Assembly: GCF_020076305.1 (NCBI RefSeq)
Contig: NZ_JAIQXE010000004.1
Span: 372,001-436,000, forward strand
Length of the DNA stretch: 64,000 nt
Direction: 5' to 3'
From: Flavihumibacter profundi
Lineage (GTDB): Bacteria > Bacteroidota > Bacteroidia > Chitinophagales > Chitinophagaceae
Below are positions 44,993 to 64,000 of the stretch, one piece after another. The notes beneath the pieces were generated by a model, which was not told the DNA's origin, did not search any database, and was given only the letters and a program-made list of their open reading frames with translations. The position numbers and the translations under genes are program-made. Positions within the stretch are counted from its first letter, which is position 1, and every line of letters begins with the position of its first letter.

Positions 44993-45035
44993 ATAAAGAT
45001 TTAGATAATAAACACCGAAAAATGATTTAGTACTT

Positions 45036-45374: not shown

Positions 45375-45571
45375 AAACTATATTTTAAATGTTTGTCAAT
45401 AAAATTTTATTGCCTGCATTTCATTTAGCACACAACACTGAAAAGTACGCATAAAATCAATTCTATTATATGTGTGGATATTACTACTAACGTGACCACA
45501 TTTTTACGCGACAAATGGTGATTTATAATTATGTTTCTTATTCAGTTATTCGTTGGAAGTTACTTCTTTCT

Positions 45572-45787: not shown

Positions 45788-45871
45788 TGAATAAGAGAAG
45801 TTGAAGACAAATATTGAATAGCGAATTGTCCGGCGAGAACAAAAGATGATAAGAATTTTAACTTTTAAATT

Positions 45872-47248: not shown

Positions 47249-47430
47249 TCAGTCAGGTTTTATTTTTCAAATGGCGATTTATTTTAAAATTATAAAATAA
47301 TTATAGTAATATATAATCGTTTGATTCTATCAGGAATTCCCAATCCAGACTAAAGCGTCCGATAATCCGCTACCCCGGGTAATCTTTGCCTTTATCTGTT
47401 TTTTGTATTTCAAATTGGAATAGGTTTGAC

Positions 47431-47453
47431 AATCTAATCCAGGACATTAGATT
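47431..47453. repeat. 8-bp perfect inverted repeat near the island edge
   Basis: AATCTAAT (47431-47438) and ATTAGATT (47446-47453) pair around CCAGGAC. On the plus strand it continues into TTTACTT, so it could also be a weak rightward terminator. Confidence 0.6.
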
Positions 47454-47490
47454 TTTACTTTCCGATACAGAACTTATAAATACACTACAG

Positions 47491-47521
47491 ATAACGGTTT
47501 CATGTTAATGAGGTACAAATG
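47491..47521 (+). repeat. two-arm site, copy 1 (ATAACGGT-N14-GTACAAATG)
   Basis: ATAACGGT (47491-47498) and GTACAAATG (47513-47521) flank a spacer with TGTTAAT. The same arms, with spacers of 13 and 3 nt, occur at 59599-59628 and 58838-58857 on the opposite strand, either side of the serine recombinase gene. No gene starts downstream of this copy. Confidence 0.85.
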
Positions 47522-47814
47522 GGGAACAATTTTATAAACTTATTAAAATATAATTGCTAAAGATACAACATACCCTTCCTAAGCCACTGATGCCCATTCC
47601 TTGGCTTTTCTTCCACATTCAACACTTCCTATACCCCGCTCTCATTTAAACGGCTCTTAGAATCTTCTCTTGTGGCAGTCCAGACACCAAAGCGGTGGAT
47701 GTGTTCTTAAAATTATATTTAGGCATCCTTAATTAAAATTCATGTAAAATTTTAAAAACCACAAAAGGTCCTTTGAGGCTAAATACAATTAGTTATAATA
47801 ATAAAAAATAATTT

Positions 47815-49584
47815 CTAACGAATTACCTTCTTCCAAATTTTGCTTTTTTTGCCAATCTTTGTACCTAATAATAACCCATATTCTCCATCCTTTGTTTTGG
47901 TAACTGGCATGTCAGACTGCCTTATTTCCAAAATTTCAGTAATACTATAATCACCTGATGATTCAATAATTAATTGTTCACCAACATACAATTCAACGTC
48001 CTTAATTTTCACTATACAAACAGTACCTCCTTTCAAAATCTCAGAAGGTTCATATACAAATACAAGGTCAGTTGGCTTAAATTCGATTAGCCCAAAATTC
48101 AAAAATGTTTTCATGGCCTCAGATTTTGAGATCAAACCAGATTCAATATCAAAATACAATTTAAATAATTGCCATGTGGTAAGTAACCCTCTTTCATCAT
48201 GTAATGCATCATTAACTTGAGTATCAGTAAATGGAGGATTCTTCCTTGTTAATGGGGGAAGATGTCTTTGATGATTCACTATATATAAAGCATACACATC
48301 AAAACTTTTTCTTTCCTTACACCTTCTATGCTTGATTTTTGAAATTTGACTGCAATTAGCATCAGTTGATGTGCCACCCAACCCTTTGCATTCAATGATT
48401 AATAACCCCTCGTTAATGGCAATTTGTATGTCCTCTTCAAATATTGTTGAAGTATTAGAAATAGAATCATACTCAGTAACGCCAGAAAAGCCTAGCCACG
48501 ACAAATATTTAATTATTGCCTTAACTAAATTGTCTCCAGATTCGATCAACATATCATGTAAGAATGAATATCGTCTTGTATTCTCAGCAATGGCTTTTTC
48601 AAATTCTAAAATCCTTTGTTCATATTCCAGCTCAACTACCCTCTTGCTGTCTACAAGTTCCTTGTGATTTGGCAACCAATAAATAGGTTCTTTTTTCCAA
48701 TTATACTTTGTAGCATATGGGAATATTTCCGGATGAATTGATGGGGCAATTTGTTGAAGGAAAGATTTTAAAAAATCATCTTGACTACTTATTTGTGGGA
48801 ATACATAAAGTGAAAAATAATTATCCTTTTTAACAAAGGAAATTATTTCATTTTTTGTATTCGTAATTAATGGCGAGAATGACTGATCAACTTTTGATTC
48901 AAAACCGTTAAATGTCATTGGTATTTTGAATGTTTGATGATACTTTATACCATTTTTATTCCTTTCCAAAAGTGAATAAAGGTCTGCATTAAATTCATTT
49001 AAAATCACAACCTCTTCACCATACATTTTTTTTCCCAATTGGATGGCATCACTAAATGAATAAATATTAATCGTATAATTTTCTCCATTCGATTCATTAC
49101 TTCCAATAACACTTACAGTTTCGTAATCAATAGTATAATCATCCGATCCAAAACAAATTATAATATGTTTTTTTCCTTGCATCTTATCTAACTCCATTTT
49201 TAACACAGCCGCTCCAAATGGTCTAGGATCAAATAAAGTTTGGGGATATCTGCTAACAAAATAATTTGCGTGATTTTGCGCGTGACTTTCTTTTGTATTT
49301 TCGCTCCAGAAATAGTTCTTTGTATTAAAATTATTTAGATCAATAATAACAATATCGTATTCATGAAGGTTTTCTGGAAATTCATAGTTTGAAACCAATT
49401 TTTGTGAATCGTAGGGGTTTTTCTTTGGAACTCTAACTTTTGAACCTAATGTTCCTTTAATTAAATTAATTCCACAATCCCTTAATGCTAAAAAAACATC
49501 ATCTGAAATATCAATTACACAGACTTTAGGTTTTGGTGTTGTTTCAATATCCAATGCTTGCACAATTTGATTTTTACCTAACAT
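47815..49584 (-). CDS. PD-(D/E)xK nuclease-like protein in the restriction-modification operon
   Basis: The 589-residue protein begins with a Rossmann-like part (KVCVIDISDDVFLALRDCG; YDIVIIDLNNF), has a long middle with a coiled segment (VVELEYEQRILEFEKAIAENTRRY) and a C-terminal nuclease-like domain. There, Asp385-x12-Glu398-x-Lys400 (DIQIAINEGLLIIECKG) gives the PD-(D/E)xK triad, followed by conserved-looking PPFTDTQVNDALHDERGLLTTWQLFKLYF. I do not recognise the full-length family. The gene starts 21 nt after the MmeI-like gene, so both are one operon and a role in restriction or protection is likely. Confidence 0.65.
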   Translation of the reverse strand: MLGKNQIVQALDIETTPKPKVCVIDISDDVFLALRDCGINLIKGTLGSKVRVPKKNPYDSQKLVSNYEFPENLHEYDIVIIDLNNFNTKNYFWSENTKESHAQNHANYFVSRYPQTLFDPRPFGAAVLKMELDKMQGKKHIIICFGSDDYTIDYETVSVIGSNESNGENYTINIYSFSDAIQLGKKMYGEEVVILNEFNADLYSLLERNKNGIKYHQTFKIPMTFNGFESKVDQSFSPLITNTKNEIISFVKKDNYFSLYVFPQISSQDDFLKSFLQQIAPSIHPEIFPYATKYNWKKEPIYWLPNHKELVDSKRVVELEYEQRILEFEKAIAENTRRYSFLHDMLIESGDNLVKAIIKYLSWLGFSGVTEYDSISNTSTIFEEDIQIAINEGLLIIECKGLGGTSTDANCSQISKIKHRRCKERKSFDVYALYIVNHQRHLPPLTRKNPPFTDTQVNDALHDERGLLTTWQLFKLYFDIESGLISKSEAMKTFLNFGLIEFKPTDLVFVYEPSEILKGGTVCIVKIKDVELYVGEQLIIESSGDYSITEILEIRQSDMPVTKTKDGEYGLLLGTKIGKKSKIWKKVIR

Positions 49585-49605
49585 AGTTGTTCCTTTTAAA
49601 TTCTT

Positions 49606-52425
49606 TTACAATTCATAATTTTTTTTCGATTTCTTCTCCTTTACAAACATCCCGGCAGTATACTTATCATAAAGCTCAAACAGGTACTCTATCCTCTTTG
49701 TTTCATTTGGGAATGGTTGGCTCCTGTAAGCCAAATCAACGGCCTTATCAAGCTGCTGGTGGGCTTTAATCAGCTCAGGTGGCATTGTGTTAGGGTCGTA
49801 GAGGTCAGCCAAGCTACTTTGTAGATAAATAGCTCTTGCATCCAATACCCCCTGTGCTGCTTTTTCAATAGCTTCTCTTTGCCTTTCTGTTGGATTATCT
49901 GGCCATGGGAAGTTGTTATATACAATATCATTGGAATAACGAAATCTACTTTCAAGCCGTCCACAAGTAGTTTTAATCCATGCCATATGCATAACGGAAC
50001 TCAAAACTCCAAAATGAAACAATGTGGCATTAGGAATTGAGTTGCAACTATCAGCTATAATATTTTCAGGAAGAAAAAAACCCAAAGGAATATAATTACG
50101 GTTTTCAGAGGAATGTCTAGGTATTAATATAAATTTGGAAGTAGGTTGTCTATTTTCAGTAAATAATCCTGGCATCTGAGCCCATTTTACCGTTGCTGCT
50201 TTTGTGCTATTTAACCTGAATAATTTTACTTTATCAAGTCTTTCTAATAATTTGGGTAAGCCTTTTAACTCCGTTGGATTAGCATTTACTAGCCAAAGAC
50301 ACCATCTTTTCTGATTATGTAAGAATTCCTTAGCACTTATAAAAGGCTTTATAAATTTTGACGCAGCTGGCTCAATAGTTAAAAATTCTTGTTTTTCAAT
50401 ATCTGTAAATAAAAGGTTGCCATTATCGGTAGGCTGGCTTCCTTTATACATTTCTGGAACCTGATTAATAGGCTTTTTTCTAGTAAAAATTACAAAATCA
50501 TTTCCTTCAACAAGATATGGGTTAATATTTTTTACACTAAACTCATGGGGCTCTCCTTTTACGTCTTCGTATTCATACAATTTTTTTGATGTAATATCAA
50601 AATTTCCAAAACCAATTATTACAACACTTACACCAGCTATATTTTTCCCCTCATTACTCCATTTAAATGGCCTATGAGCAAAGTGAATCTTAACCTTAAA
50701 CCTATTAAATAATTCATTCCAAAGAATACCAACCTGTTCCCCTTGTGCAATTGATTTTGTACTTACAAAAGCTACTTTTGTTTTATCCGCAACGCTTGAA
50801 ATTCTTTCATTGCATACTTCCATATATTTGGCTGCTATAACATACCAACAAGCAACATAGTCCAATACTCCTGAACCGTCAACTCCCTTGAAAACGAGCT
50901 CCATATCCTTTTTCTGTTCCTTATTTTGCAATGAGTATCCAATAAATGGAGGGTTACCTAAAATATAATTAAACCTTGCATTGCCCATTTCCCAAGGCAT
51001 TGGATCTAACAAACTCTGCCAATCAATTCTAAGAGCATTTCCATGCTTTATGCTGGCAGATTTCTTAAGAGGCAACCTAACATAGTACTCACCAAATGTG
51101 CTAGTAATAAGCTGGTTCATTTGATGATCCATTAACCACATGGCAACCTGTGCTATTTGAACCGGGAACTCTTCATATTCAATCCCATAAAATTGATCCA
51201 CATCACATTTAATTAGGTATCCCACATCCATCCTAGCACTTCGAAGTACTTCATCACGATATCCTTCTAGCTTAAGTAACTGCTTAATTACTTCAACCTC
51301 TAGTAATCTCAATTCCCTGTAAGCTATGATGAGAAAGTTTCCGCATCCACATGCAGGATCTAGAAATTTTAACTTACTGAACTTATCATGGAACTTTTGC
51401 AGCTTAACTTTACTCCCTTTTACCTGTTCATATTCTTGCCAAAGATTATCAAGAAATAAGGGTTTAATCAATTTAAGTATGTTCTTTTCGCTGGTATAAT
51501 GCTGACCAAGGTTTCTTCTTTCTTTCTCATTCACGACACTTTGAAACAGACTACCAAATATTGCCGGTGAGATCTTACCCCAATCCAAAAGGCAGCATTC
51601 AATTAATGCTTTCCTCATTTCACTATCAAATCCAGCAAGTGGTAACCTTTCTTCAAATAATTTACCATTAACATAAGGAAAGGCACCTAAGCTTTCATCC
51701 AGATTTTTTAACCTATTTGCCTCTGGCGTATTTAGGACGTTAAAGAGAGCATCTATGTGCATAGCTAGGTCAGTGCCATCCTGATTAGTTTTGAGGTCAA
51801 TGTAGTCGTGGAAAATGCCCCTCTCGAATATACTGGTATCATCAGCGAATAGGCAGAACAGCAGTCTTACCAAATATAGCTCCAATTGGTGGCCAGTGTA
51901 TCCAATGGCTTTGAGCTTATCATGGAGTTTACCCATCAGCTCAGCAGCCTCTATATTTACAGGATCTTGATCTTTATAGGTTCTTTTTTGATACCCGGCA
52001 ATAAAACCAAACAGGTGTACATGATCTACCAGAGTATCAAGTTTAAATTCCTGCTGTGTATTTTCTTCAAGGTCATACAGCCGGAATTTCTCAAAATCGC
52101 TAACAAGGATGTATCGGGGTAACTCTTTTTCAGTGAGTCCAGGAAAATAGTCCTTTGCTTGCTTGTAGGCTCTGTCCAAATCCTTACCTCTGCTCTTATG
52201 CTCAACCAGTATCATTCCCTTCCACAGCAGGTCAATAAAGCCCGTTTTAGCATCAATTTTCTTTACCTGCTGCTCAAAAGTTGCCACCCGTCTCCTGCTT
52301 ATTCCAAATATATTGAAGAAGTCATCCCAAAAGCTTTTGGCTTCCGCATCCTCACTGACTTCATCCTTCCATTCATTACTAAAGGCAGAGGCTCTACTTT
52401 TGATTTCATTCCAACTAAGAGGCAT
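49606..52425 (-). CDS. MmeI-like type IIL restriction-modification enzyme
   Basis: The 939-residue protein joins nuclease, helical, methyltransferase and recognition regions in the MmeI order. Asp65-x9-Glu75-His-Lys77 (FIDLLWKGMILVEHKSRGK) is the nuclease triad. LDPACGCGNF (Asp356) is methyltransferase motif I and NPPF (491-494) is motif IV of N6-adenine enzymes. The target recognition region follows, to about residue 850. Length matches MmeI (about 920). It cuts foreign DNA a fixed distance from an asymmetric site and methylates one strand of its own. No specificity can be read. All key motifs are intact, so it is probably active. Confidence 0.85.
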   Translation of the reverse strand: MPLSWNEIKSRASAFSNEWKDEVSEDAEAKSFWDDFFNIFGISRRRVATFEQQVKKIDAKTGFIDLLWKGMILVEHKSRGKDLDRAYKQAKDYFPGLTEKELPRYILVSDFEKFRLYDLEENTQQEFKLDTLVDHVHLFGFIAGYQKRTYKDQDPVNIEAAELMGKLHDKLKAIGYTGHQLELYLVRLLFCLFADDTSIFERGIFHDYIDLKTNQDGTDLAMHIDALFNVLNTPEANRLKNLDESLGAFPYVNGKLFEERLPLAGFDSEMRKALIECCLLDWGKISPAIFGSLFQSVVNEKERRNLGQHYTSEKNILKLIKPLFLDNLWQEYEQVKGSKVKLQKFHDKFSKLKFLDPACGCGNFLIIAYRELRLLEVEVIKQLLKLEGYRDEVLRSARMDVGYLIKCDVDQFYGIEYEEFPVQIAQVAMWLMDHQMNQLITSTFGEYYVRLPLKKSASIKHGNALRIDWQSLLDPMPWEMGNARFNYILGNPPFIGYSLQNKEQKKDMELVFKGVDGSGVLDYVACWYVIAAKYMEVCNERISSVADKTKVAFVSTKSIAQGEQVGILWNELFNRFKVKIHFAHRPFKWSNEGKNIAGVSVVIIGFGNFDITSKKLYEYEDVKGEPHEFSVKNINPYLVEGNDFVIFTRKKPINQVPEMYKGSQPTDNGNLLFTDIEKQEFLTIEPAASKFIKPFISAKEFLHNQKRWCLWLVNANPTELKGLPKLLERLDKVKLFRLNSTKAATVKWAQMPGLFTENRQPTSKFILIPRHSSENRNYIPLGFFLPENIIADSCNSIPNATLFHFGVLSSVMHMAWIKTTCGRLESRFRYSNDIVYNNFPWPDNPTERQREAIEKAAQGVLDARAIYLQSSLADLYDPNTMPPELIKAHQQLDKAVDLAYRSQPFPNETKRIEYLFELYDKYTAGMFVKEKKSKKNYEL

Positions 52426-52609
52426 TGGGGCAAAGGTTTATGGATAAAAATACTGGAAAATGCTTTGTCTTATTTACTATTAAATATTAAAATACCCTAA
52501 CTAAGACCAGTCGGGGTATAGATATCCTTTCAGAGTGAAATAAAATTAAATCCGGATGGTGGTACAATTCAACCTTGAAGCACCACATTTTCTTTTGCCC
52601 AGATCAAAT

Positions 52610-53032
52610 TCATTGTAATTTCCCTTTTTCTAATATTGAGCCGGATTGAATATCTGATGCCATTTTCTGAGAATCTTCAGAATAGACATGCCACCCATTT
52701 TGGGAGCCCGATGCAAAAATAAATGTATCAAAAGATCCTGTTGTGTCCAGAGATCCTGAGAGAATTCCTAGGCCTACAGTGGTATAAGATCCACTGTCAT
52801 TTGGTATAAGTGCATATGAGTACTTTCGATGCTTAATACTATAGTAACCATAAAGTTCATATTCTTCTGAGTTTATAAGTTCTTGTAAACTTGAGGATGC
52901 ATCCTGAGTTAATACAGTCCTAAAGCTTGCATAAGTTAGTCCACTATTGGGATCATGCTTAGGTGTTAGGAGTGATCCACTTTTTGCCCCTGCCTTCAAT
53001 TCTTTAATTAGCTCTTCCTTATTTAATAACAT
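52610..53032 (-). CDS. hypothetical protein
   Basis: This 140-residue protein (LLNKEELIKELKAGAKSGSLLTPKHDPNSGLTYASFRTVL) is Ser/Gly/Tyr-rich in its second half and has no signal, membrane segment or domain that I recognise. It is encoded between the restriction enzyme and a 99-residue acidic protein, in the same direction. Confidence 0.5.
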   Translation of the reverse strand: MLLNKEELIKELKAGAKSGSLLTPKHDPNSGLTYASFRTVLTQDASSSLQELINSEEYELYGYYSIKHRKYSYALIPNDSGSYTTVGLGILSGSLDTTGSFDTFIFASGSQNGWHVYSEDSQKMASDIQSGSILEKGKLQ

Positions 53033-53100
53033 TTTTAATGTATTATGATCAATTACCTTTTTTCTAAACCTGCTTAATTTTTAACTATTTAAAGAAGTAA

Positions 53101-53400
53101 TTAAGCTTCGTCTGGATAGAATTCTGAGAGAACATCACCTCCAAAATTATTAATTGACCTTAAGTAGCGATACCCATCTGTATCTTTTACATCAGTGATC
53201 CAATCCTTAGCTGATGAATACTCCTTAAGAATATCAATTGTGATATCTTCATCAAAGTACGGTCTACTGCCAGCGTAATAGGATTTAATAAAGGCTACCA
53301 AGCTTTTAATATCTGAGTTTTCACCCCTGTACGGAGTTGTTCCTTGAATACCATCTCCATCTTCATAGATAACTTGGTAATCCAAAAGTAAATACTTCAT
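53101..53400 (-). CDS. small acidic hypothetical protein
   Basis: The 99-residue protein (MKYLLLDYQVIYEDGDGIQG ... DVLSEFYPDEA) is rich in Asp and Glu and poor in basic residues. I recognise no family. Its position close to a restriction system and its charge would fit a nucleic-acid mimic, but this is only inference. Confidence 0.5.
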   Translation of the reverse strand: MKYLLLDYQVIYEDGDGIQGTTPYRGENSDIKSLVAFIKSYYAGSRPYFDEDITIDILKEYSSAKDWITDVKDTDGYRYLRSINNFGGDVLSEFYPDEA

Positions 53401-53437
53401 ATTGCTAGGTTTATATCATTAAAATTAACAATATAAT

Positions 53438-53563
53438 TTAACTGAAGGAGCCTACCTTTTTAATTTTAGTAATTGTATTCACGTGTAGCCCGGTAATTTT
53501 TGATACCTCAGTGGCTTTGTACCCTTTCTTCAAAAGCTGTACCCTTAACCTGTGAAACCAAAT
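53438..53563 (-). pseudogene. helix-turn-helix fragment (transposase-like)
   Basis: A 41-codon open frame without a good start reads RLRVQLLKKGYKATEVSKITGLHVNTITKIKK on the minus strand. This is a helix-turn-helix of the kind at the N-terminus of transposases or site-specific recombinases. It is closed by TGA upstream and TAA downstream, so it is a stranded fragment. Confidence 0.45.
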
Positions 53564-53645
53564 TCAGGCAATTCTCATTGGAAAAAATAAACCACCCTTA
53601 TTGGATGGTATACTTTATAAATTGCAATTTCATGTAATGCAGTTC

Positions 53646-53819
53646 TTAAATAGCCTTATTCTTTAAATAAGCATCCTCCAGTTTCTTCTGCTTGGCTATT
53701 ATTCGATCACATTTTCTCATCAGGCTTGAAATAGCATTAAGAGTTCTATCCTTCCGTGTTGTTGCATTTGGAATTCTTGCTGGTGCTGGTGCTGGTGAGG
53801 TAACTTGTGTTTTTTTCAT
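53646..53819 (-). CDS. 57-residue basic small protein
   Basis: A frame from ATG 53819 encodes 57 residues: an Ala/Pro stretch (SPAPAPARIP) followed by a basic helix (SSLMRKCDRIIAKQKKLEDAYLKNK). It has clean AT-rich flanks like its neighbours and no competing frame. It is unrecognised; a small DNA- or protein-binding role is possible. Confidence 0.4.
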   Translation of the reverse strand: MKKTQVTSPAPAPARIPNATTRKDRTLNAISSLMRKCDRIIAKQKKLEDAYLKNKAI

Positions 53820-53961
53820 TCACTATTATTTTAGAAATCAAAGTTGATCTCAAATAATCAGGCGATCAAATATATTTATATTTTTAATATCTTTAATGAT
53901 ATCGTCAACCATAGAAAGTTGTGAAATTACCGCAGCTCAGCTATTGTACAACTTATAATAT

Positions 53962-54180
53962 TCAAAATAGCTTTAAAAAACGTTCACTGTCAAACCCAAA
54001 ATAATCTACAAGCTGCATAAGATCCAAAGTGGGAATTTCGTTACCACTCTCAGCATCTTCAATTTGCTTGCTTGTTAATCCTGTTGCTGATGCTAATTGC
54101 TCCTGAGTCATTTCTTTAAATTCTCGAAGAAATTTTATCAATTTTCCAAATTTGTTGGGGATGGTTTCAGAAGTATACAT
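53962..54180 (-). CDS. XRE-family HTH regulator
   Basis: From ATG 54180 the protein has 72 residues and is almost entirely a Cro/C1-type helix-turn-helix (FGKLIKFLREFKEMTQEQLASATGLTSKQIEDAESGNEIPTLDLMQLVDYF). A TTG two codons further up is the other possible start. It likely controls island genes; TTGGCARTTAA repeats lie at and before its start. Confidence 0.8.
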   Translation of the reverse strand: MYTSETIPNKFGKLIKFLREFKEMTQEQLASATGLTSKQIEDAESGNEIPTLDLMQLVDYFGFDSERFLKLF

Positions 54181-54250
54181 TGGCAATTAAATTTTTGAGC
54201 TAATTATTGATTTTGATGCAAAGCATAAATTAACCATTCTTGGCAGTTAA
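54180..54250. promoter_or_regulatory. TTGGCARTTAA direct repeats before the XRE gene
   Basis: TTGGCAATTAA (54180-54190) and TTGGCAGTTAA (54240-54250) are exactly 60 bp apart, the first over the XRE start and the second over the stop of the upstream gene. They are candidate operators for autoregulation. Confidence 0.4.
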
Positions 54251-54441
54251 CTAAGACTACCATCTATAGGGTATGTATAATACAGCATTGCAGATGCTGC
54301 TGTAATCAGCTCCTCTAATTCTCCCGTTGATCCTTTCATCTCAGATATGCCAAGAATAAGTATTAGAAGCTCATCACTGGCAAATTTTCCGCCAATCTTT
54401 AGTGTATCTATCATTTCGGGAGAAATGGGCTTAGTGGTCAT
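54247..54441 (-). CDS. small hypothetical protein upstream of XRE
   Basis: This 64-residue acidic protein (MTTKPISPEMIDTLKIGGKFASDELLILILGISEMKGSTGELEELITAASAML) is helical, with no recognised domain. It precedes the XRE gene in the same direction and may be co-transcribed. Confidence 0.45.
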   Translation of the reverse strand: MTTKPISPEMIDTLKIGGKFASDELLILILGISEMKGSTGELEELITAASAMLYYTYPIDGSLS

Positions 54442-54516
54442 ATATTTAGTTTCACTTCCTACAAGGATAATACATATGAATATAGGCTACATTTGGAATA
54501 ATTAAACCGATAAACC

Positions 54517-54990
54517 ATGAAAATATTATTACTTGCCATTATTAGCTGCTCATGCTTACTAAATGCGAATGCTCAGTGCAAAGGACTTAAAATTAAAAAA
54601 GATGAATACACTGGAAATCTCTCAACTTCATGGCAAATGCCGGGTCGGGGCCATTTATTTCCTGCTATGATCTCAAAACTCCAAGACAAGGATACAACCG
54701 TGAATGTACTTACCTTATTAGCTCAGAATAGTGATTTTGATTTGCAGCAAGTTGGTGCATTTGTGTTGTTTACTGATGGCACTACATTCATAAATGATAG
54801 TATTAAAATTGAGGCTACTCCTACTACTGGAATGACAACATATAACGTTTTCCTGCCTTTATCAAAAGCAGATCAAGCTCTCTTCCAAACTCATCAAATT
54901 GCAAAGTTTAGGCTAGGTAGGTTTGAAAGAAAACTATTCGAAAAAGATGCCCGTGAATTGGTAGATAAAATTAAATGTGTTACCGAATAA
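54517..54990 (+). CDS. exported hypothetical protein
   Basis: The 157-residue protein has a signal peptide (IISCSCLLNANAQC) and a beta-rich mature part (DEYTGNLSTSWQMPGRG; VGAFVLFTDGTTFINDSIKIEATPTTGMTTYNVFLPL). It is unrecognised, and is the only rightward gene in the island section, divergent from the small upstream gene. Confidence 0.55.
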   Translation: MKILLLAIISCSCLLNANAQCKGLKIKKDEYTGNLSTSWQMPGRGHLFPAMISKLQDKDTTVNVLTLLAQNSDFDLQQVGAFVLFTDGTTFINDSIKIEATPTTGMTTYNVFLPLSKADQALFQTHQIAKFRLGRFERKLFEKDARELVDKIKCVTE

Positions 54991-55059
54991 GGATTATTAA
55001 TGATAAATTTCCGATAAGATATCCGAGAATTCCAGCTGTAACAATATTATTTATTTTGA

Positions 55060-55228
55060 TTACCAGTACCATCTATTGAGGTTGGTTTTTTTTGTGGTGT
55101 TCCTCTGGATACCATTGAAGTGAATGGTTCCTTGCCTGTTATTATGCTCAATGACGGCTCCTTTCATTGATTCCTTGACTGCGACATCAAAAGCCTCTGC
55201 CTTAGCAGTAATGGCTTCTTTATCCCTT
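55060..55228 (-). other. open frame overlapping the end of the 213-residue gene
   Basis: In the +1 frame relative to the gene ending at 55220, the minus strand stays open as RDKEAITAKAEAFDVAVKES and then MKGAVIEHNNRQGTIHFNG to a TAA at 55060. The residue mix looks coding. Either a frameshift near 55225 cut off a longer protein or a small gene overlaps. No strong start codon is present. Confidence 0.25.
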
Positions 55229-55861
55229 AAACCAGTACCTTAATTCTTCATCTATCTCCCATTCACTTTTCTGGTAAGTTTCCATCCATCCAATACGCTT
55301 GTGAAATAGGGCCTTTTCAAGTAAAATTTCCCTATATCGGTTTAAGATAGTACCACTCAGCCAAATACAAAGCTCATAGCCTTCAGCATCTATTGAATGT
55401 TGAATTCTCTTAACCCAGAATGTATCTGTTCCAACTTTAGCTTTAACAAAGTTGAAACTGAACTTTTCATATTCTCTGGGAACTGCATATACGGAGGATC
55501 TGATTTCGGCCCGACTATCAAAATAAGCAAAGTACAGGGTTACAGGTATCCCTGTACTTTGAAATAGTTTAGGATTCTCAAAATTCAAATCCAGCAAATC
55601 ATAGTAAGCAGATGAAATCCATTTGGTAAATTTGGGGGCATCAATTTTGAGATCAGCAGCCATACTCTTGATTGTTCTTCTATCAGCACTATCCGTGTAA
55701 AAATTATCTTTAAGCACCCTTGACAACATTTCATTGTAAGGCTTATCTGGCTCCTGCTGAATTAGATGGCTTACCCAATGTGGCATTGATGATAGGCAAT
55801 AGAAAATCTCTTTGGTGGAAGGAACATGCAGTATCTTTTCCCTTATTTTAACCCTAGTCAT
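55220..55861 (-). CDS. hypothetical protein, possible DNA-binding
   Basis: The 213-residue protein has a helix-turn-helix-like stretch (TIKSMAADLKIDAPKFTKWISSAYYDLLDLN) in its first third and a beta-rich C-terminal half (VTLYFAYFDSRAEIRSSVYAVPREYEKFSFN; GYELCIWLSGTILNRYREILLEKALF). I do not recognise the family. It is separated from the small-gene group by 120 nt. Confidence 0.5.
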   Translation of the reverse strand: MTRVKIREKILHVPSTKEIFYCLSSMPHWVSHLIQQEPDKPYNEMLSRVLKDNFYTDSADRRTIKSMAADLKIDAPKFTKWISSAYYDLLDLNFENPKLFQSTGIPVTLYFAYFDSRAEIRSSVYAVPREYEKFSFNFVKAKVGTDTFWVKRIQHSIDAEGYELCIWLSGTILNRYREILLEKALFHKRIGWMETYQKSEWEIDEELRYWFKG

Positions 55862-55984
55862 TTTTACTTAAAAGTTAATAAAAAAGCTTTAATCTTTGAT
55901 CATGGGATTGGAGCTTACTGGTCTCCTCTTAGATTCTTTAGGTATCATTATATAGAATCTTTTCACCCACCACTTCATACTAAG

Positions 55985-56203
55985 CTAGCAACCAGCCTTC
56001 TTTAGGTTCTGGTACTTCTCAAATTCCGCATGGAACCTGATTTCAGTAACCTGCCCTTGTACATAAGCTTTCCTGATAACACTAAAGGCACTATCGACAT
56101 TGGTCCGGTTTGTTGAATAAAAAATTTCAGTTGCCATGGCTGTTAGACATCCAAGGCTAAACTTTCGTTTCAATGATGATGCATTATTTCTTAATCCTTT
56201 CAT
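55985..56203 (-). CDS. small helical protein, member of a local paralogue group
   Basis: The ATG at 56203 (MKGLRNNASSLKRKFSLG) gives 72 residues; a TTG at 56230 is less likely. Its NVDSAFSVIRKAYVQGQVTEIRFHAEFEKYQNLKK segment has the same hydrophobic spacing as segments in the proteins encoded at 56349, 56713 and 57106. A GATCGCT motif lies 17-24 nt before the start. Confidence 0.45.
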   Translation of the reverse strand: MKGLRNNASSLKRKFSLGCLTAMATEIFYSTNRTNVDSAFSVIRKAYVQGQVTEIRFHAEFEKYQNLKKAGC

Positions 56204-56219
56204 CTTAGTAATATTTATT

Positions 56220-56248
56220 AGCGATCTCAATCTTAAGCGATTTTAAGC
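56220..56248 (-). promoter_or_regulatory. GATCGCT leader motif, copy 1 (double)
   Basis: On the minus strand CTTAAAATCGCTT and GAGATCGCT lie in tandem just before the start at 56203. Similar motifs stand in front of three other genes of the island. Confidence 0.5.
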
Positions 56249-56348
56249 CCATCCTATAGGCCCCACCATTTTCTCGGCTGATGATAAGGGTTTGAGTTTA
56301 GGAAGGCAACCAAGAGCTTCCTCAGGCGCTTGGAAGCCATCTGATGCT

Positions 56349-56654
56349 TTAGGGCAGATATTTATCAATCTCCTGCTTAACTTCATCCAACTGAAGGCTT
56401 GGAATCAATTGTAGATTTTCAGCATGCTCTTCCATGAATTCCCTGACGTGCCTGAGATAAATGCAATATGTGTCAAGGGTGATTAGCCCACCACCAAACT
56501 CTTCTTTTGCTTTATTAAACTTTTGCACTATTTGGTCAACAACAAACTGGGTATCCTCACGGAACTCATTTACCCTAATAGCAAGTGATTTGAGACAATT
56601 CCCAAATTCACCAGCCTCACGTGCTTTACTTTGCTTTAGAAACTCTGCATTCAT
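56349..56654 (-). CDS. small helical protein, member of a local paralogue group
   Basis: This 101-residue protein (MNAEFLKQSKAREAGEFGNCLKSLA) is predicted all helical. Its VVDQIVQKFNKAKEEFGGGLITLDTYCIYLRHVREF segment aligns with the neighbouring small proteins by pattern, not by strong identity. It ends DEVKQEIDKYLP, compared with IAVEIQKFV in the next protein. A GATCGCT motif precedes it. Function unknown. Confidence 0.5.
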   Translation of the reverse strand: MNAEFLKQSKAREAGEFGNCLKSLAIRVNEFREDTQFVVDQIVQKFNKAKEEFGGGLITLDTYCIYLRHVREFMEEHAENLQLIPSLQLDEVKQEIDKYLP

Positions 56655-56680
56655 CTTTCTTAATTTTAAGTTTTTTTAAG

Positions 56681-56688
56681 AGCGATCT
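56681..56688 (-). promoter_or_regulatory. GATCGCT leader motif, copy 2
   Basis: AGATCGCT on the minus strand lies 27-34 nt before the start at 56654 and is followed by CTTAAAA. Confidence 0.5.
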
Positions 56689-56712
56689 GGTAATACTATC
56701 TTTCAAATCCAG

Positions 56713-57063
56713 TTAAACAAATTTTTGAATCTCCACTGCTATCGATGCGGTGTCAAGGTGTTTGTTATCAAATGTGTTTTCCCGGTTGGTAAGGAATTCC
56801 TTGAGCTTTTTCAGATGATCTACATAAAAAGCTTGGATTATTCTTCTGTTCTCGTAATCACTTTTAAGCTGCTCAAATTGCAGGTTAACCTCCCTGCAAA
56901 GAGTATTAACCGCCTTTTGATCCAGCGCCACTGATTCAATAAATTCTGTGGGAGTTTCATTGGTTACTCCCTTTTGCAGGATGTTGTTGTGGTGATTTTT
57001 AATTTCTGTAATCATTTCCAGATTTTCTCCCATTGTGTCATACGAATTAGACCTGATAGCCAT
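56713..57063 (-). CDS. small helical protein, member of a local paralogue group
   Basis: The 116-residue protein (MAIRSNSYDTMGENLEMITEIKNHHNNILQ) is helical throughout. VNLQFEQLKSDYENRRIIQAFYVDHLKKLKEFL resembles the matching part of the 101-residue protein, and both end in a short amphipathic helix. A double GATCGCT motif lies 22-37 nt before the start. Function unknown. Confidence 0.5.
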   Translation of the reverse strand: MAIRSNSYDTMGENLEMITEIKNHHNNILQKGVTNETPTEFIESVALDQKAVNTLCREVNLQFEQLKSDYENRRIIQAFYVDHLKKLKEFLTNRENTFDNKHLDTASIAVEIQKFV

Positions 57064-57084
57064 TTTTTTGCTTTTTTAATTTCT

Positions 57085-57100
57085 AGCGATCTAGCGATTT
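57085..57100 (-). promoter_or_regulatory. GATCGCT leader motif, copy 3 (double)
   Basis: On the minus strand AAATCGCTAGATCGCT gives two overlapping copies before the start at 57063. Confidence 0.5.
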
Positions 57101-57105
57101 AAGTT

Positions 57106-57417
57106 TTACGATTCATTTAGTTTGGATTCCATCAATTGAGGAAGCTCATCATAAGCCCTAAGTATAGCCTTAGAATCAATAAATGGGTTATCTAGTAGCA
57201 TATTGATTACAATGCCATCTTTCAACCTTGTAATAGCCTTAGCGTATATACCTGTAGTTATATATCCATTGGTATGATCTTCTACCAGATGGTTGAAGAT
57301 TGTATCTAATGAAATACATATGTATTTCACCTTGAATTGAGTATGCTCATGGTGGGAAAACAAAGACAGGTTATGATCTAGTAAATCATAGCTGATATGT
57401 CTGGTTTGCCTCATCAT
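57106..57417 (-). CDS. small protein, last gene of the excisionase-like operon
   Basis: This 103-residue protein contains LDTIFNHLVEDHTNGYITTGIYAKAITRLKDG, with the same spacing as the three small proteins further left. It starts directly after the stop of the 213-residue gene (no gap), so it belongs to the four-gene operon headed at 58717. Function unknown. Confidence 0.5.
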   Translation of the reverse strand: MMRQTRHISYDLLDHNLSLFSHHEHTQFKVKYICISLDTIFNHLVEDHTNGYITTGIYAKAITRLKDGIVINMLLDNPFIDSKAILRAYDELPQLMESKLNES

Positions 57418-58059
57418 TTAATTTTTTGATTTTTCATTGGATAAATATTTTTCCTCCTCCTGATCCAGCTTACCCCCGATCTCTTTTAATTTCAGTGCTG
57501 CAATCTTTTTTAGGGATTCCCTGAGTTTAGCAGTGGGATCAAATGTTGTTATTGTCTGTAGGGGCATAGCTGGTAATTCTTTCTGCTTTATCTGCTCAAT
57601 ATTGGCAGTTTCTACTATCTCTGCTGCAACATCCTCAGTAACCACCTGATCCTCTCTATTGCCCTGTATTACGCTAAGGAGATTATATTCAGCCTGCTTA
57701 GTTTTCTTGATAAACTCAAGTACTTCAATTTGCTCATCCAAGGTGAGTTTAGTTAAATCATATTCTGGCTTTGAGCTTTTGACTTCAATTTTCTCATTAA
57801 TTACTTCGAGCTGGAATCCAGGATTATGGTATTGCAGGATTTTTTCTTTCTGAATCATGGTGGAAATGCAGTCACTGTATGCTCTTATCCTTCTCTCTTT
57901 AGCTTTGTAATAGTCAGATTTATCAACTCTTCCCCTTATCAGATCATCTAAAGAATAATCCTTCATTTTCAGTAAACGATCAATAATGGAATTGTATCGA
58001 TGTATATGGATTGGGATAACCTCAACAACCTGAATAAATTGATCCGCTCTTTTTCCCAT
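57418..58059 (-). CDS. protein with terminase-small-like YDLTKLT segment (longer)
   Basis: This 213-residue helical protein has PEYDLTKLTLDEQIEVLEFIKKTKQ in the middle, which repeats the tail of its upstream neighbour, then a long charged C-terminal part (LRESLKKIAALKLKEIGGKLDQEEEKYL). Phage small terminase subunits often end in a similar DLSKLTDEEL segment. Start and the upstream stop overlap by one base (TAATG), implying translational coupling. Confidence 0.5.
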   Translation of the reverse strand: MGKRADQFIQVVEVIPIHIHRYNSIIDRLLKMKDYSLDDLIRGRVDKSDYYKAKERRIRAYSDCISTMIQKEKILQYHNPGFQLEVINEKIEVKSSKPEYDLTKLTLDEQIEVLEFIKKTKQAEYNLLSVIQGNREDQVVTEDVAAEIVETANIEQIKQKELPAMPLQTITTFDPTAKLRESLKKIAALKLKEIGGKLDQEEEKYLSNEKSKN

Positions 58060-58523
58060 TACCTTGCTTTTTCCATTAAGAATTGCAATCTTGCCCGTTC
58101 AACCTCAGTAAGTTTGGTTAAATCATATTTGTGGCTGACTCCAGTTTCAGTGATGGTAATTTCACTATTTCTTACTGTGACCTTATTCCCCTCCTTAAGT
58201 ACATCCATCAGCCTCTCCTTCGCTTGGAGGGCCTTATTTGAACCAGGAGTGTAGCCTGCCTCCCGCAGGTAGGCATATATTAATTCATACTTACTAATAT
58301 GGTCCTCCATCACGGATCTTCTGTATTCAGGAGTTGAGTATAGTAAGTTTAATTTATCAATAGCACTATCAATAAGCTCATTGATGGATTCCTCCTGACA
58401 CTCCCAACCTTCATTTAGGAAAACCTGAATTATCTTATCTCTTCCCATTGCCTCATCGCAAATAAGATTGGTAATTCTGGTAATTATCTCTTGCTCTTCC
58501 AGTTCAGTTAGTGACATATTCAT
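58059..58523 (-). CDS. terminase-small-subunit-like protein
   Basis: The 154-residue protein has a helical N-terminal part (QEIITRITNLICDEAMGRDKIIQVFLNEGW), a middle ELIYAYLREAGYTPGSNKALQAKERLMDVL and the tail SHKYDLTKLTEVERARLQFLMEKAR. The order of helical core, beta strip (KVTVRNSEITITETG) and KLT tail recalls small terminase subunits, which bind packaging sites. This is pattern recognition, not a proven homology. The start overlaps the excisionase-like stop (ATGA). Confidence 0.45.
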   Translation of the reverse strand: MNMSLTELEEQEIITRITNLICDEAMGRDKIIQVFLNEGWECQEESINELIDSAIDKLNLLYSTPEYRRSVMEDHISKYELIYAYLREAGYTPGSNKALQAKERLMDVLKEGNKVTVRNSEITITETGVSHKYDLTKLTEVERARLQFLMEKAR

Positions 58524-58717
58524 TTGCTACCTCCTGCTTGATTGATTAAGGTATCCAAATGCTGTTCGGATATTAGCCTTCTACGGCCAATAAGGAGGCT
58601 GGTAAGCTTCTGCGAAGAGATTAGCTTATCAAGTGTAGGGAGGCTAATCCTGAGCTTAACAGCAGCCTCTTTCCGTGTAAATAATGATTGATTGCTTGAT
58701 TGCACAACTTTATCCAT
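58520..58717 (-). CDS. excisionase-like helix-turn-helix protein
   Basis: This 65-residue protein is a MerR-like HTH_17 domain (LFTRKEAAVKLRISLPTLDKLISSQKLTSLLIGRRRLISEQHLDTLI), as in excisionases and small island regulators. It heads a tight operon with the two terminase-like genes and the 103-residue gene. A good promoter lies 82-113 nt upstream. Confidence 0.75.
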   Translation of the reverse strand: MDKVVQSSNQSLFTRKEAAVKLRISLPTLDKLISSQKLTSLLIGRRRLISEQHLDTLINQAGGSK

Positions 58718-58798
58718 TTGAGAATGATTTTAAAAGCGGTTGTTATGCAATCCGGTAACTAAGAATTAATTACCTCACGTTATTTAGAAACGTTAGAA

Positions 58799-58830
58799 CA
58801 AAAGTAAAACAAATAAAGAATATCTGCAAA
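58799..58830 (-). promoter_or_regulatory. Bacteroidota-type promoter of the excisionase-like operon
   Basis: On the minus strand TTTG (58827-58830) and TACTTTTG (58799-58806) are 20 nt apart, matching the -33 TTTG and -7 TAnnTTTG boxes. Transcription would begin near 58793, giving a leader of about 75 nt before ATG 58717. Confidence 0.6.
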
Positions 58831-58837
58831 TAAAAAA

Positions 58838-58857
58838 CATTTGTACTATACCGTTAT
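58838..58857 (-). repeat. two-arm site, copy 2 (short spacer)
   Basis: On the minus strand ATAACGGTATAGTACAAATG carries both arms with a 3-nt spacer, 10 nt less than copy 3. It lies just upstream of the promoter at 58799-58830 and just past the serine recombinase stop. Confidence 0.8.
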
Positions 58858-58880
58858 ATCAAATATGATATTAAGGGAAG

Positions 58881-59564
58881 TTAGTTTGTAAACCGCTTAT
58901 CAATCCTTTGCACTTGAATAGCTGTCCAATCTTTTTTGCCTGTACTTGTTTCAAATCCACGTTCCATCAACTTACCAGCAATTTCCCTGTAGCTCTTATC
59001 TTCTTTACGCATAAATTTTATCAGGTCCATTACCTGTACCGTAGATCTTTGAGTTCTGGCCTTATCCCTTCTTGCATCATTACCAGCCTTGATTCTTTCT
59101 GGTGTTAGATTATTTACCACCCGCTTTCCTAATCCCCTAGCTTTACGGGCTGCAAGTGCTTCCTTAGTACGCTTACTGATACGTTCGGCCTCAAATTGTG
59201 CAAATGCAGCAAATATGCCCAAAGTAAGGGTATCCTTGATATCAGGTATATCTACAACTCTGCAATTAACACCAGACTCCTTAATAGTTTTAAAAAGAAA
59301 TGCTACATCACGGCTTAGCCGATCCAATTTGCTAACAATAAGTGTGCTTTTATTTTTTTTGCAGTATTCCAAGGCCTCACTTAACACTAGCCTATCATTA
59401 TTTCTTCCTGATTCAATTTCAATAAATTCCTTTTCAATGCAATTACCATCATTACATCCGGTATAATTAACAAGGAAGGTTTTTACAGAATGTCTTTGGG
59501 CTTCCACCCCGTATTCTTGTTTGCCTGTACTAACCCGATAATAAGCCACAAATGTTTCCTTCAT
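58881..59564 (-). CDS. small serine recombinase (resolvase/invertase family)
   Basis: The 227-residue protein has the catalytic Ser12 in YYRVSTGKQ, the Arg pair in VSKLDRLSRDVAFLF and the E-helix (FAAFAQFEAERISKRTKEALAARKARG). A C-terminal helix-turn-helix (DLIKFMRKEDKSYREIAGKLMERGF) binds DNA. It cuts and rejoins DNA through a Ser-DNA link and could act as resolvase, invertase or integrase. Two-arm sites lie on both sides of it. The gene is intact. Confidence 0.9.
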   Translation of the reverse strand: MKETFVAYYRVSTGKQEYGVEAQRHSVKTFLVNYTGCNDGNCIEKEFIEIESGRNNDRLVLSEALEYCKKNKSTLIVSKLDRLSRDVAFLFKTIKESGVNCRVVDIPDIKDTLTLGIFAAFAQFEAERISKRTKEALAARKARGLGKRVVNNLTPERIKAGNDARRDKARTQRSTVQVMDLIKFMRKEDKSYREIAGKLMERGFETSTGKKDWTAIQVQRIDKRFTN

Positions 59565-59598
59565 TACTGGTAGTTTATTCTAAAAACCGAAAATAATA

Positions 59599-59628
59599 CA
59601 TTTGTACCATATTAACAACGACCGTTAT
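59599..59628 (-). repeat. two-arm site, copy 3
   Basis: On the minus strand ATAACGGT and GTACAAATG flank a 13-nt spacer with TGTTAAT. It lies 35-64 nt before the serine recombinase start. With copy 1 it shares 25 of about 30 positions. Confidence 0.85.
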
Positions 59629-59659
59629 TATATTGTTACAGCTCTCTAAATTCCCACTT

Positions 59660-60241
59660 TTACCACAACCCCTTAAGACTATCATTGGCATGCATACTCC
59701 TCATATATCGTTTTGTAAGGTTTCCGGCATAGTATACTTTAAAGTACTTCCTAGTAACCTGCTTAGCTGTATTCTGAAGCCTGATGAGCTGCTTCAGCTC
59801 TTTTGAGGTATTCCTTTCAGTGCTTGATTGGATCTGGGATAGATAGTGAGGATTATTAATTGCCAGCTTTGATACAAACCTACCTTCATACAGGTAAAGC
59901 TTCCTTCTCAGGCTTCCTGTAATGGGACATTTGAAATAATACACTACCCCCTTCCCAATGGGAGCTTTTTTTGCCACCAGCTTTATGCTCTGAGTGATTG
60001 GCCTTCCTTTAATTGAAAATTTCACTTCCGCATAATCATTATCTGTATTGGTATCAATGTTCACAGATATCTGCATAGAGGCTGCTAATTCCTTATTACC
60101 TGTAATTGGATTGGTAGTGTACAGAGTAATGCCCTTCTTCCTCCTTCCTATGGCTTTTAAGCCTATTTCCTTATTCAAGATGGTAATGTCCAGGGGAATT
60201 AAATAATCAAGCAGTATTGCCCTCCCATTTTTCTTTTTCAT
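59660..60241 (-). CDS. hypothetical protein with degenerate zinc-ribbon-like region
   Basis: This 193-residue basic protein has YYFKCPITGSLRRKLYLYEGRFVSKLAINNPHYLSQIQSS, which recalls a phage/plasmid protein family with a CPxxG ... LYL ... zinc-ribbon-like region near replication genes; here most metal cysteines are absent. That is a recollection of pattern, with low confidence. It is encoded between the serine recombinase and the membrane protein. Confidence 0.5.
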   Translation of the reverse strand: MKKKNGRAILLDYLIPLDITILNKEIGLKAIGRRKKGITLYTTNPITGNKELAASMQISVNIDTNTDNDYAEVKFSIKGRPITQSIKLVAKKAPIGKGVVYYFKCPITGSLRRKLYLYEGRFVSKLAINNPHYLSQIQSSTERNTSKELKQLIRLQNTAKQVTRKYFKVYYAGNLTKRYMRSMHANDSLKGLW

Positions 60242-60334
60242 TAAATATTAATTATTAGCCTAACTCGATTGGGAAGATGCAATTTATAAGGGTAGGTACT
60301 TTTGCCACCAATACCTTCTTTATATATTCTATCC

Positions 60335-60958
60335 TTAAAGCATTTTAATTCTTATATCTTCCTTCCTTTTAGCTTCCTTTTCAATTTTATTCATTAAGCT
60401 CTCATTTACTATTGCCTCATTTATATTACCTACACACTGTACCAGATATTTAGCACCTTCCAAATCTTCATATTTTGCAAATAACATCCATGCACCAGTA
60501 GCCCAATGAACATCAGAGTAGCCCCCTGCTGGTATTGAATAGCTTAAATATGGTGGGGGGTCAAACTCTTCAGTGTCTTTTCTTTCTGATGGCACTTTCG
60601 CAATAACTACCTTGTGGGCAGCCCCTTTTCCAACATTTATAAGGTGGTATGTTTTCCCTTCGTGGGCAATAAAAACTAAGTAAGGCATATGTTCTTCGCG
60701 TAGCAATTTCTTCTCCCATTTATCCCTCTGATTTTGCCCATTATAAACCAGCCAACTCAACCAAGAAACCACTATTGCACTTGCAAAGTTTATTACCATG
60801 CTAAAATAATCTCCAGTCTGCCCCCATTGCTCTACACTATTTGATGCTTTTGTTCCGGAGAATTTATAAATAAAGATTACTATCAGGTAGAGGATACCTA
60901 ACCCCAATATGATCAGGATAATAGGTCCAATTTCTAAATCTTTCTTCTTGTTCTTCAT
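60335..60958 (-). CDS. two-helix membrane protein of unknown function
   Basis: The 207-residue protein has two membrane helices (IGPIILIILGLGILYLIVIFIY and YFSMVINFASAIVVSWLSWLVY) and a C-terminal soluble domain (MPYLVFIAHEGKTYHLINVGKGAAHKVVIAKV). This layout is common in unassigned proteins of mobile elements. It has no known domain that I can name. Confidence 0.55.
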   Translation of the reverse strand: MKNKKKDLEIGPIILIILGLGILYLIVIFIYKFSGTKASNSVEQWGQTGDYFSMVINFASAIVVSWLSWLVYNGQNQRDKWEKKLLREEHMPYLVFIAHEGKTYHLINVGKGAAHKVVIAKVPSERKDTEEFDPPPYLSYSIPAGGYSDVHWATGAWMLFAKYEDLEGAKYLVQCVGNINEAIVNESLMNKIEKEAKRKEDIRIKML

Positions 60959-61213
60959 ATAATGCTAGCGTTTGTAATTCAGTTATAAATTTTGATGTAT
61001 ACTTGGCATAAGTATTAATAAATTTAATTAATCTGCTCTTTAAATTTAATTTCTCTTTCTATCTCCATTCCACCAATATTTATATTTAAGTCATTCATCA
61101 CTATCCCTCTATTCTTCTCTTCTTATTTATAATTTAATTTTAAGCTTTTTTATAATTCCATTCTCCTCTCTTCCTATTATACCAATATTATAAACTTAGT
61201 CTATTGTTACACC
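60959..61213. other. very AT-rich intergenic gap
   Basis: The gap is strongly AT-rich and without an open frame of note. An origin near the possible replication gene is conceivable, but no iterons were seen. Confidence 0.3.
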
Positions 61214-62251: not shown

Positions 62252-62266
62252 TTAAGTAACAAGGCT

Positions 62267-62356: not shown

Positions 62357-62362
62357 ATTGGG

Positions 62363-62695: not shown

Positions 62696-62727
62696 AACGT
62701 TAAAAGCTCTCCTTTAGAGAATTTTTA

Positions 62728-62889: not shown

Positions 62890-64000
62890 TTAAAATTTAA
62901 TTTTTATTTTATTGGCTGCCTCCCTTTTCCTTTCATTCACAATCTTTGCATATATCTGTGTGGTTTTAATTTCTCGGTGGCCAAGCATCTCAGATATGAC
63001 ATATAGATCTACCCCAAAACTAAGCAGCAACGTTGCATTTGTGTGCCGGAATCCATGAAAAGTAATACCCTTATTAATTCCTGCTCTCTTGAGCCATTTT
63101 GGCAATTCTGTTTGTGTGTAGCTATATTTCAGATCATCAAAAACATGATCCTTTTCGTTCCCCCTTTCTCCCAATAAATCAAATGCTTCATCCGATATTG
63201 GCAGGGTTTCTGTTAATTTGGTTTTCTTCTGCCTGAACCGGATAAAGTACCCTTCAGTACTACTATGCTGCACTTCACTCCAGATTAATTTTTTGATATC
63301 ACTAAACCTAAGCCCTGTCAGTGATGAGAAAATCACAGCATTCTTTAGTACAGGAACTGAGCATTGTGTAGATGCCAGAAGCTTCAATTCTTCTAAGGTT
63401 AAATACTGTCTTTCAGTTTCTTCCTCCTTTATTCTTTTGATGGTGCTATTAACATCCCTTTCCAAGTATCCATCCTTGTAAGCTTGCTTTAATACAGCTT
63501 TGAATTTATTAAAATATGAAAGAGCTGAGTTTTGTGATAGTGTAGTTTTTTTACTTTTCCTGCTGGGTGCAGTTAACAGGAATTCTTTGAACTCTTCACC
63601 AAACCTTTCATTTATATCTTTAAATGGAACATCACCCCCATTTGTAAATTCTTTCAGATAAAGTAGAGCCGATTGCCAGTTACCGGAATTACCCCCTATT
63701 CTTTTCTTTGCTAATTGTTCAAAGTAATCCACAATACCTACCTTCTGCTTTTCTTCTGACAGGAATCCATAGTTACCCTTGGATACCAGCAATTGTCTTT
63801 GTGCCCTGATGCTTTCTGCCAAGATCTCCATATCATGATTATGCTTCTTTTCAGCTTCATTGAGCCTAGCTCTTTTGGGCTTACCTTTTGAATCTAATAC
63901 AGGTGCAAATCTTCTCTGTTCCTTCCCATTTGAATCAATGTAGGTTTCTGCACTGTATTCAGTTTCATCAAACAGGAACAGCTTCAAAAACTCCCTTCTG
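62890..64000 (-). CDS. tyrosine-type integrase, N-terminus cut by the window edge
   Basis: The open frame runs from the window end through RREFLKLFLFDETEYSAETYI to IKIKF, at least 369 residues. It has the SAM-like N-terminal core-binding domain and the catalytic domain with Arg in LTGLRFSDIKKL, His-x-x-Arg in FHGFRHTNATLL, His in LGHREIKTTQ and the nucleophile Tyr in IYAKIV. It integrates and excises the element. An apparent start at a TTG inside the frame is not credible, because the frame stays open beyond it. Confidence 0.9.
   Translation of the reverse strand, partial: RREFLKLFLFDETEYSAETYIDSNGKEQRRFAPVLDSKGKPKRARLNEAEKKHNHDMEILAESIRAQRQLLVSKGNYGFLSEEKQKVGIVDYFEQLAKKRIGGNSGNWQSALLYLKEFTNGGDVPFKDINERFGEEFKEFLLTAPSRKSKKTTLSQNSALSYFNKFKAVLKQAYKDGYLERDVNSTIKRIKEEETERQYLTLEELKLLASTQCSVPVLKNAVIFSSLTGLRFSDIKKLIWSEVQHSSTEGYFIRFRQKKTKLTETLPISDEAFDLLGERGNEKDHVFDDLKYSYTQTELPKWLKRAGINKGITFHGFRHTNATLLLSFGVDLYVISEMLGHREIKTTQIYAKIVNERKREAANKIKIKF

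Follow-up and report, generated by a model that had tools for sequence, protein, structure and literature searches.

Three copies of a two-word motif in a Flavihumibacter profundi island inserted in mnmE probably combine two kinds of recombination sequence

A two-word motif, ATAACGGT followed at variable distance by GTACAAATG, occurs three times in a genomic island of Flavihumibacter profundi, and the likeness between its copies is best read as two unrelated kinds of recombination sequence that share letters. According to this reading, which was considered probable, copy 3 is the crossover site of a serine recombinase, the GTACAAATG half of copy 1 is an arm of a tyrosine integrase, and the third copy (copy 2) is left without an assigned role. 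The initial annotation, made on the window (the whole stretch of 64,000 nucleotides that was analysed), was partly confirmed in what it observed and partly supported in how it was interpreted. The features concerned are given below, with coordinates counted from the first letter of the window.

47459..47475, no strand: left attachment core (attL), with a direct copy at 64700-64716 in the last mnmE codons, beyond the window.
47491-47521, plus: copy 1 of the motif; its right half equals the first integrase arm repeat, its ATAACGGT half is unexplained.
47512..47530, plus: tandem 11-bp arm-type repeat GGTACAAAT-GG-GGAACAAT, putative arm of the tyrosine integrase.
47815-49584, minus: gene of a 589-aa protein, cargo, adjoining the MmeI-type gene.
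49606-52425, minus: MmeI-type IIG restriction-modification gene, cargo.
58799..58830, minus: promoter-like TTTG-N20-TACTTTTG upstream of a 65-aa HTH_17 gene, recognized by eye.
58838-58857, minus: copy 2 of the motif, rejected as a crossover site by the matrix described below.
58881..59564, minus: serine recombinase, 227 aa, catalytic residues intact.
59599-59628, minus: copy 3 of the motif, mostly contained in the following palindrome.
59603..59640, minus: 38-bp imperfect palindrome with centre AACG-GT-CGTT, candidate crossover site, holding most of copy 3.
62890..64000, continuing to 64104 beyond the window, minus: tyrosine integrase, 404 aa.

Letters, strands, coordinates and spacers (14, 3 and 13 bases) of the three copies were rechecked against the sequence and were all exact. 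Both words with 2-20 bases between them gave exactly three matches in the 4.87-Mb genome, all within 12 kb and none elsewhere, and the reversed control gave none. The likeness had been called far beyond chance, which surrogate counts with correction for the whole window did not bear out. In short, any 8-mer followed after a gap of 2-20 bases by a 9-mer and present in at least three copies was counted in the window and in order-2 Markov surrogates, following removal of low-complexity words from real and surrogate windows alike. The real window contained three such word pairs, namely the motif itself and two others, both stemming from a repeat near 35.4 kb. At least one pair was obtained in 7/20 surrogates in a first run and in 20/100 in a second run, while a three-copy motif with at least six G/C was found in 3/100. 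The repeat caught by this count consists of ACGTAGGAT-like words at approximately 35430-35460 and at 9270.

Alignment of copy 1 and copy 3 yielded a score of 18 over 40 columns (77.5% identical). In the real window, 59 pairs (this one included) equalled or exceeded that score; the 10 surrogates each contained 28-44 such pairs. The flank to the left of GGTACAAATG was also compared with the arm held fixed. The likeness between copies 1 and 3 was reached by 54/20,000 random island stretches and that between copies 2 and 3 by 1693/20,000, stretches overlapping the sites being skipped yet counted in both denominators. The residual likeness of copies 1 and 3 (54/20,000) is unaccounted for and may reflect chance after several looks, a decayed site or shared binding. 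A fourth GGTACAAATG lies at 64557, beyond the window, in the same direction as copy 1. In viral contigs, a scan run without a control matched the two-word pattern in 96 stretches, each of the 80 listed having one match, which by a rough estimate is about the chance level.

The island spans 47459 to 64716 (17.2 kb) and is inserted in the 3′ end of mnmE (64696-66081, minus), its right end lying beyond the window. Its two ends are marked by direct copies of a 17-bp core, TTTCCGATACAGAACTT, the left at 47459-47475 and the right, within the last mnmE codons, at 64700-64716. Copy 1 had been placed at the island edge; the true left end is the left core, 15 bases outside the start of copy 1, and the right end is the core at 64700-64716. 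The mnmE gene was present in 14 of the 15 genomes of the genus (own included). A search of the 13 other genomes with the left flank of attL returned one match of 21 bases, covering the core only, and no empty site. An integrase gene, direct core repeats at both ends and arm repeats inside both ends, as expected for a tyrosine-integrase element with arm-type sites, were all present.

At the left end, GGTACAAAT starts at 47512 and GGAACAAT follows 11 bases on. The corresponding pair at the right end, GGTACAAAT-GA-GGAACAAAT, is located at 64557-64576 in the same direction, inside the island and beyond the window. Among 396 genomes of the order, the pattern GGTACAAATNNGGNACAAA was listed at 24 places, spread over 21 genomes (own included), with three matches of the reversed control in the table. 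An integrase relative (41-48% identical in the best segment) was found at no more than 1.5 kb from 8 of the 23 foreign places, the other 15 being without one. Both ends were read in the island and in three related elements (L163, L164 and L168), so that cores, arm repeats and spacing could be compared in four elements. The distances from the core end to the left arm and from the right arm start to the core start were 36/143 bases in the island and 38/140, 38/150 and 39/147 bases in L163, L164 and L168, respectively. Exact core repeats measured 20, 10 and 11 bp in L163, L164 and L168 and 17 bp in the island, with shuffles reaching 13, 13, 12 and 11. Since shuffles reach 13 and 12, the 10- and 11-bp core repeats carry no weight by their length; their weight comes from equal position and mnmE sequence. 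The second end was not identified for L165-L167 and L169-L171 within the stretches examined, and mnmE adjoined the integrase in eight of nine related loci (L166 with the mnmE end only, L169 with none).

Because tandem arms, spacing and the mnmE target recur in related elements, the right half of copy 1, GTACAAATG, is most likely part of a tandem site of the arm type, which the tyrosine integrase would use for integration into, and exit from, the 3′ end of mnmE. Compared with phage records, the best integrase matches were 38% identical and in unannotated records. In a genome of the same genus (L171, approximately 10290-10370, G012), an integrase by the mnmE end is accompanied by a different tandem repeat, GGCAACAAT-CT-GGCAACAAAT, noticed by eye; from this repeat, arm letters may vary with the integrase. 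Beside the island's integrase, a helix-turn-helix protein (62363-62695, minus) is similar, at 60.6 bits (cut-off 80), to MAD1, a model from the MADS defence system. The model may pick up excisionase-like proteins, because relatives of this protein adjoin other integrases of the class.

The serine recombinase contains a Resolvase domain (PF00239, 4.2e-28). Residues R10, S12, R82 and R85, whose catalytic roles we take to be those of gamma-delta resolvase, were invariant in nine aligned sequences. By domain and by these Arg/Ser residues it is a small serine recombinase of the resolvase/invertase group. The best 25 plasmid relatives listed were 40-45% identical over nearly the full length; 19 were from Cytophagales and the remaining six from Granulicella, Microvirga, Methylobacterium and Skermanella. 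Genome contigs yielded 13 loci, of which L023 matched over the full length (36% identity) and the other 12 in part; viral contigs yielded two, both partial. Among the 59 nearest genomes, five had a match (own included), the best other being partial and 37% identical. One relative is carried by plasmid pHsw2 (L181, 41.6 kb), on which tape measure, terminase, primase and LexA-type genes are annotated and which is possibly a phage-plasmid.

Palindromes of 38-44 bp were found at most 166 bases upstream of the recombinase gene in five of the first six plasmid relatives fetched, and for 16 of the 25 relatives, some with palindromes of other types, none of 30 shuffles reached the best upstream palindrome. 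L179, for which no start was found, was left out of this survey, and L181, the plasmid of L160, was used for whole-plasmid scanning only. The palindrome of the window, TGTAACAATATAATAACG-GT-CGTTGTTAATATGGTACA, has the same frame as in the relatives and lies 39-76 bases before the gene; by itself it scores 7, not beyond shuffles, the largest of 30 reaching 9. Sixteen similar-looking palindromes were aligned, seven of them with the exact centre AACGNNCGTT; these 16 sites, and the seven from which a matrix was built, were hand-picked from the 25 relatives for a shared dyad type.

The matrix (40 columns, seven relatives, window left out) scored 30.9 bits at 59602-59641, the next place in the island reaching 11.8 bits and the best in the 47 kb to the left 7.7 bits. 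Around copies 1 and 2, the best scores were -4.4 and -7.8 bits. Half-site scores were 17.9 and 13.2 bits for copy 3, 2.0 bits for copy 1 and 7.2 bits for copy 2, the last being the best half-site of that copy and exceeded by 75 windows in 104 kb. For the 18 relatives outside the matrix, the best place was less than 100 bases before the gene in 10, at -415 in one and elsewhere in seven. Some of these matches were low (e.g., 2.6 bits), and the counts are not independent, several relatives being nearly identical to one another. A genome-wide search with the consensus gave one full match and, at chance level, two places with three mismatches (control 0). The complete plasmids pHsw2 and pSLIN03 had no second strong site (next 6.0 and 8.1 bits); only this absence counts, because both plasmids contributed to the matrix. 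In a Runella stretch, a further place scoring 15.8 bits lies 11.4 kb away from the recombinase gene. Upstream of the recombinase gene of Runella plasmid pRUNSL03 (L183, approximately 19840-19940), two palindromes are located about 58 bases apart.

Compared with its relatives, the island hence has a dyad site with a 2-base centre near the recombinase gene, and 59603-59640 is the probable crossover site of that recombinase. In copy 3, ATAACGGT corresponds to the inner left arm plus the centre and GGTACA to the right outer end of the palindrome. Most matrix relatives have GTTACA or GTTATA at that position, so one change suffices to equal the integrase arm. The proposal that all three copies are crossover sites therefore held for copy 3, with its 30.9 bits and its counterparts in the relatives, and failed for copies 1 and 2, given their scores of -4.4 and -7.8 bits, their low half-site scores and the arm repeat in copy 1. 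A search for the site beside homologous recombinases, which the initial annotation had suggested as a check, came out the same way: Cytophagales plasmids carry a palindrome in the position of copy 3, and copies 1 and 2 fall outside the matrix derived from them.

Strand exchange would take place at the central GT, between two such sites each occupied by a recombinase dimer. Given a single site in each element, exchange would occur only between two copies of the element, which makes the resolution of dimers of the island's circular form the likeliest task of the recombinase. Such a task would imply a circular form that replicates. The palindrome before the gene may in addition serve to repress the recombinase.

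Copy 2 fits neither a recombinase site nor an integrase arm well. It lies directly upstream of the promoter-like sequence of the 65-aa HTH_17 gene, and its spacer is approximately one helical turn shorter than in copies 1 and 3, which would suit an operator. A regulator (the integrase, the recombinase or an HTH_17 protein) that binds ATAACGGT plus GTACAAATG at all three places, and thereby links both the small-gene operon and the promoter of the recombinase with the attachment site, was considered unlikely. It would explain why copy 3 precedes the recombinase gene and copy 2 the promoter-like sequence of the HTH_17 operon, why spacers differ by about one helical turn, and why three copies are gathered in 12 kb with none elsewhere in the genome, a motif of equal G+C occurring in only 3/100 surrogates. 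Some such motif was nevertheless present in 20/100 surrogates, and ATAACGG was absent between core and arm in the stretches of L163, L164 and L168 examined.

Also bearing on this explanation is a sister element from the same family of bacteria (G128:C6), which has homologues of the operon proteins p154, p213, p116 and p193 but, in the searches made, neither a serine recombinase match nor the two-word motif nor GTACAAATG, ATAACGG occurring only outside the element. The absence of the motif beside these homologues argues that copy 2 is not a conserved operator of p154, p213, p116 and p193, and the alternative of operators for two operons put forward in the initial annotation gained no support from it. 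As evidence against operators the sister element is weak, because its integrase is a different one and the recombinase is missing as well.

Cross-talk between the two systems was judged quite unlikely. Here, one outer arm of the recombinase site in copy 3 would have turned into a perfect integrase arm (GGTACAAAT), and copy 1 would be a recombinase site that has degenerated and is joined to the attL arm, with integrase and resolvase binding each other's sites and so coupling integration, excision and dimer resolution. It is decidedly improbable that the palindrome serves the recombinase gene solely as an autoregulatory operator, with strand exchange elsewhere. In most relatives having one, the palindrome lies near the start of the gene, a position suited to repressor binding, and its role in exchange is drawn from comparison; however, serine recombinase crossover sites are long dyads with a 2-base asymmetric centre, a form which the palindrome matches, and the genome search yielded no further site of this type.

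The original proposal, in which copies 1 and 3 as inverted crossover sites would flip the 12 kb that include the restriction operon, or recombination of copy 2 with copy 3 would delete the recombinase gene between them, is highly improbable: copy 3 is a probable site and its likeness to copy 1 spans most of the palindrome if two single-base gaps are allowed, but copies 1 and 2 lack the CGTT half of the centre and score negatively, the spacers of 14, 3 and 13 bases are unlike the relatives' fixed frame, and a single full site match in the genome predicts neither rearrangement. Two inverted sites flanking a segment, as for a DNA invertase, were not found with the ungapped matrix used for scoring. 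One site beside the recombinase gene, as in plasmid-type multimer resolution, was found, the Runella relative having its second, weaker place.

Besides the two recombinases and the cargo listed above, the island encodes three HTH_17 proteins and many genes without a family match. No conjugation or mobilization families were detected among the 19 island proteins by Pfam scan. Searches of Pfam, PADLOC and NCBIfam with the 589-aa protein gave no match within the limits applied; a nuclease-like IIECK stretch was noticed in it by eye. For a 345-aa protein, no Pfam family was obtained at a meaningful E-value and no plasmid or viral relative; three relatives with 23-24% identity were found in 244 genomes, and a single-sequence model had a mean pLDDT of 33.6. 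That its gene is a replication gene is a guess. The 213-aa operon protein (p213) was found in one other genome (G128) of 396, with no match in plasmids or viral contigs. Screening of 45000-64000 for RNA families gave none at gathering score.

The outcome is fairly ordinary, yet it yields testable sites. A claim of phase variation is replaced by two predictions, a 38-bp resolvase site common to a group of plasmid recombinases, mostly from Cytophagales, and an mnmE attachment-site layout in which integrases of the order use a core and tandem GGTACAAAT arms at near-fixed distances. Either can help to locate where further elements end and where their sites lie. The presence of a resolvase with a single site on an integrated island also hints at replication after excision, as in SGI1.

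Sites like these were unreported in the titles of the literature matches listed, including those for GTACAAAT with integrase, mnmE with integrase and resolvase palindromes. The closest attachment systems are the mnmE-targeting elements of the same order (L163, L164 and L168), whose integrases are 42-49% identical to that of the island and target the same end of the gene. They share with the island tandem arms at both ends, in direct order and at nearly equal spacing; they differ in having 5.5-7.5 kb between the arms compared with 17 kb, and no match to the island's serine recombinase was found within the stretches examined. The sister element (L197/L198, joined coordinates 11521-24680) also encodes a 24% relative of the 345-aa protein, but has a different integrase and a 27-bp attachment repeat of another target. 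It carries this integrase of its own together with defence-like cargo.

In passages of PMC9035990, SGI1-related elements are described as inserting at the 3′ end of trmE (mnmE) and as mostly carrying a resolvase gene and sometimes restriction genes. Plasmid-like replication of SGI1, a gamma-proteobacterial integrative mobilizable element, when excised and helper activated is described in part of PMC7826253. The island resembles these elements in combining 3′ mnmE insertion, a resolvase gene and restriction cargo. SGI1-related mobilization genes, traN/traG/traH and FlhDC-type regulators were absent among the 19 island proteins as judged by Pfam rather than by direct comparison with SGI1 proteins, and because these 19 proteins contain no conjugation or mobilization family, the island is not classed with the SGI1-related elements. 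For the recombinase, the closest systems are proteins borne on Cytophagales plasmids and annotated as "recombinase family protein" (resolvase), for example in Adhaeribacter swui, Spirosoma, Pontibacter, Hymenobacter and Runella, with an upstream palindrome in the same frame. Unlike these, the recombinase described here belongs to a chromosomal island that encodes a tyrosine integrase as well, and the palindrome is less perfect. In its anatomy, the island pairs a resolvase system of the plasmid kind with an attachment system of the tyrosine-integrase kind.
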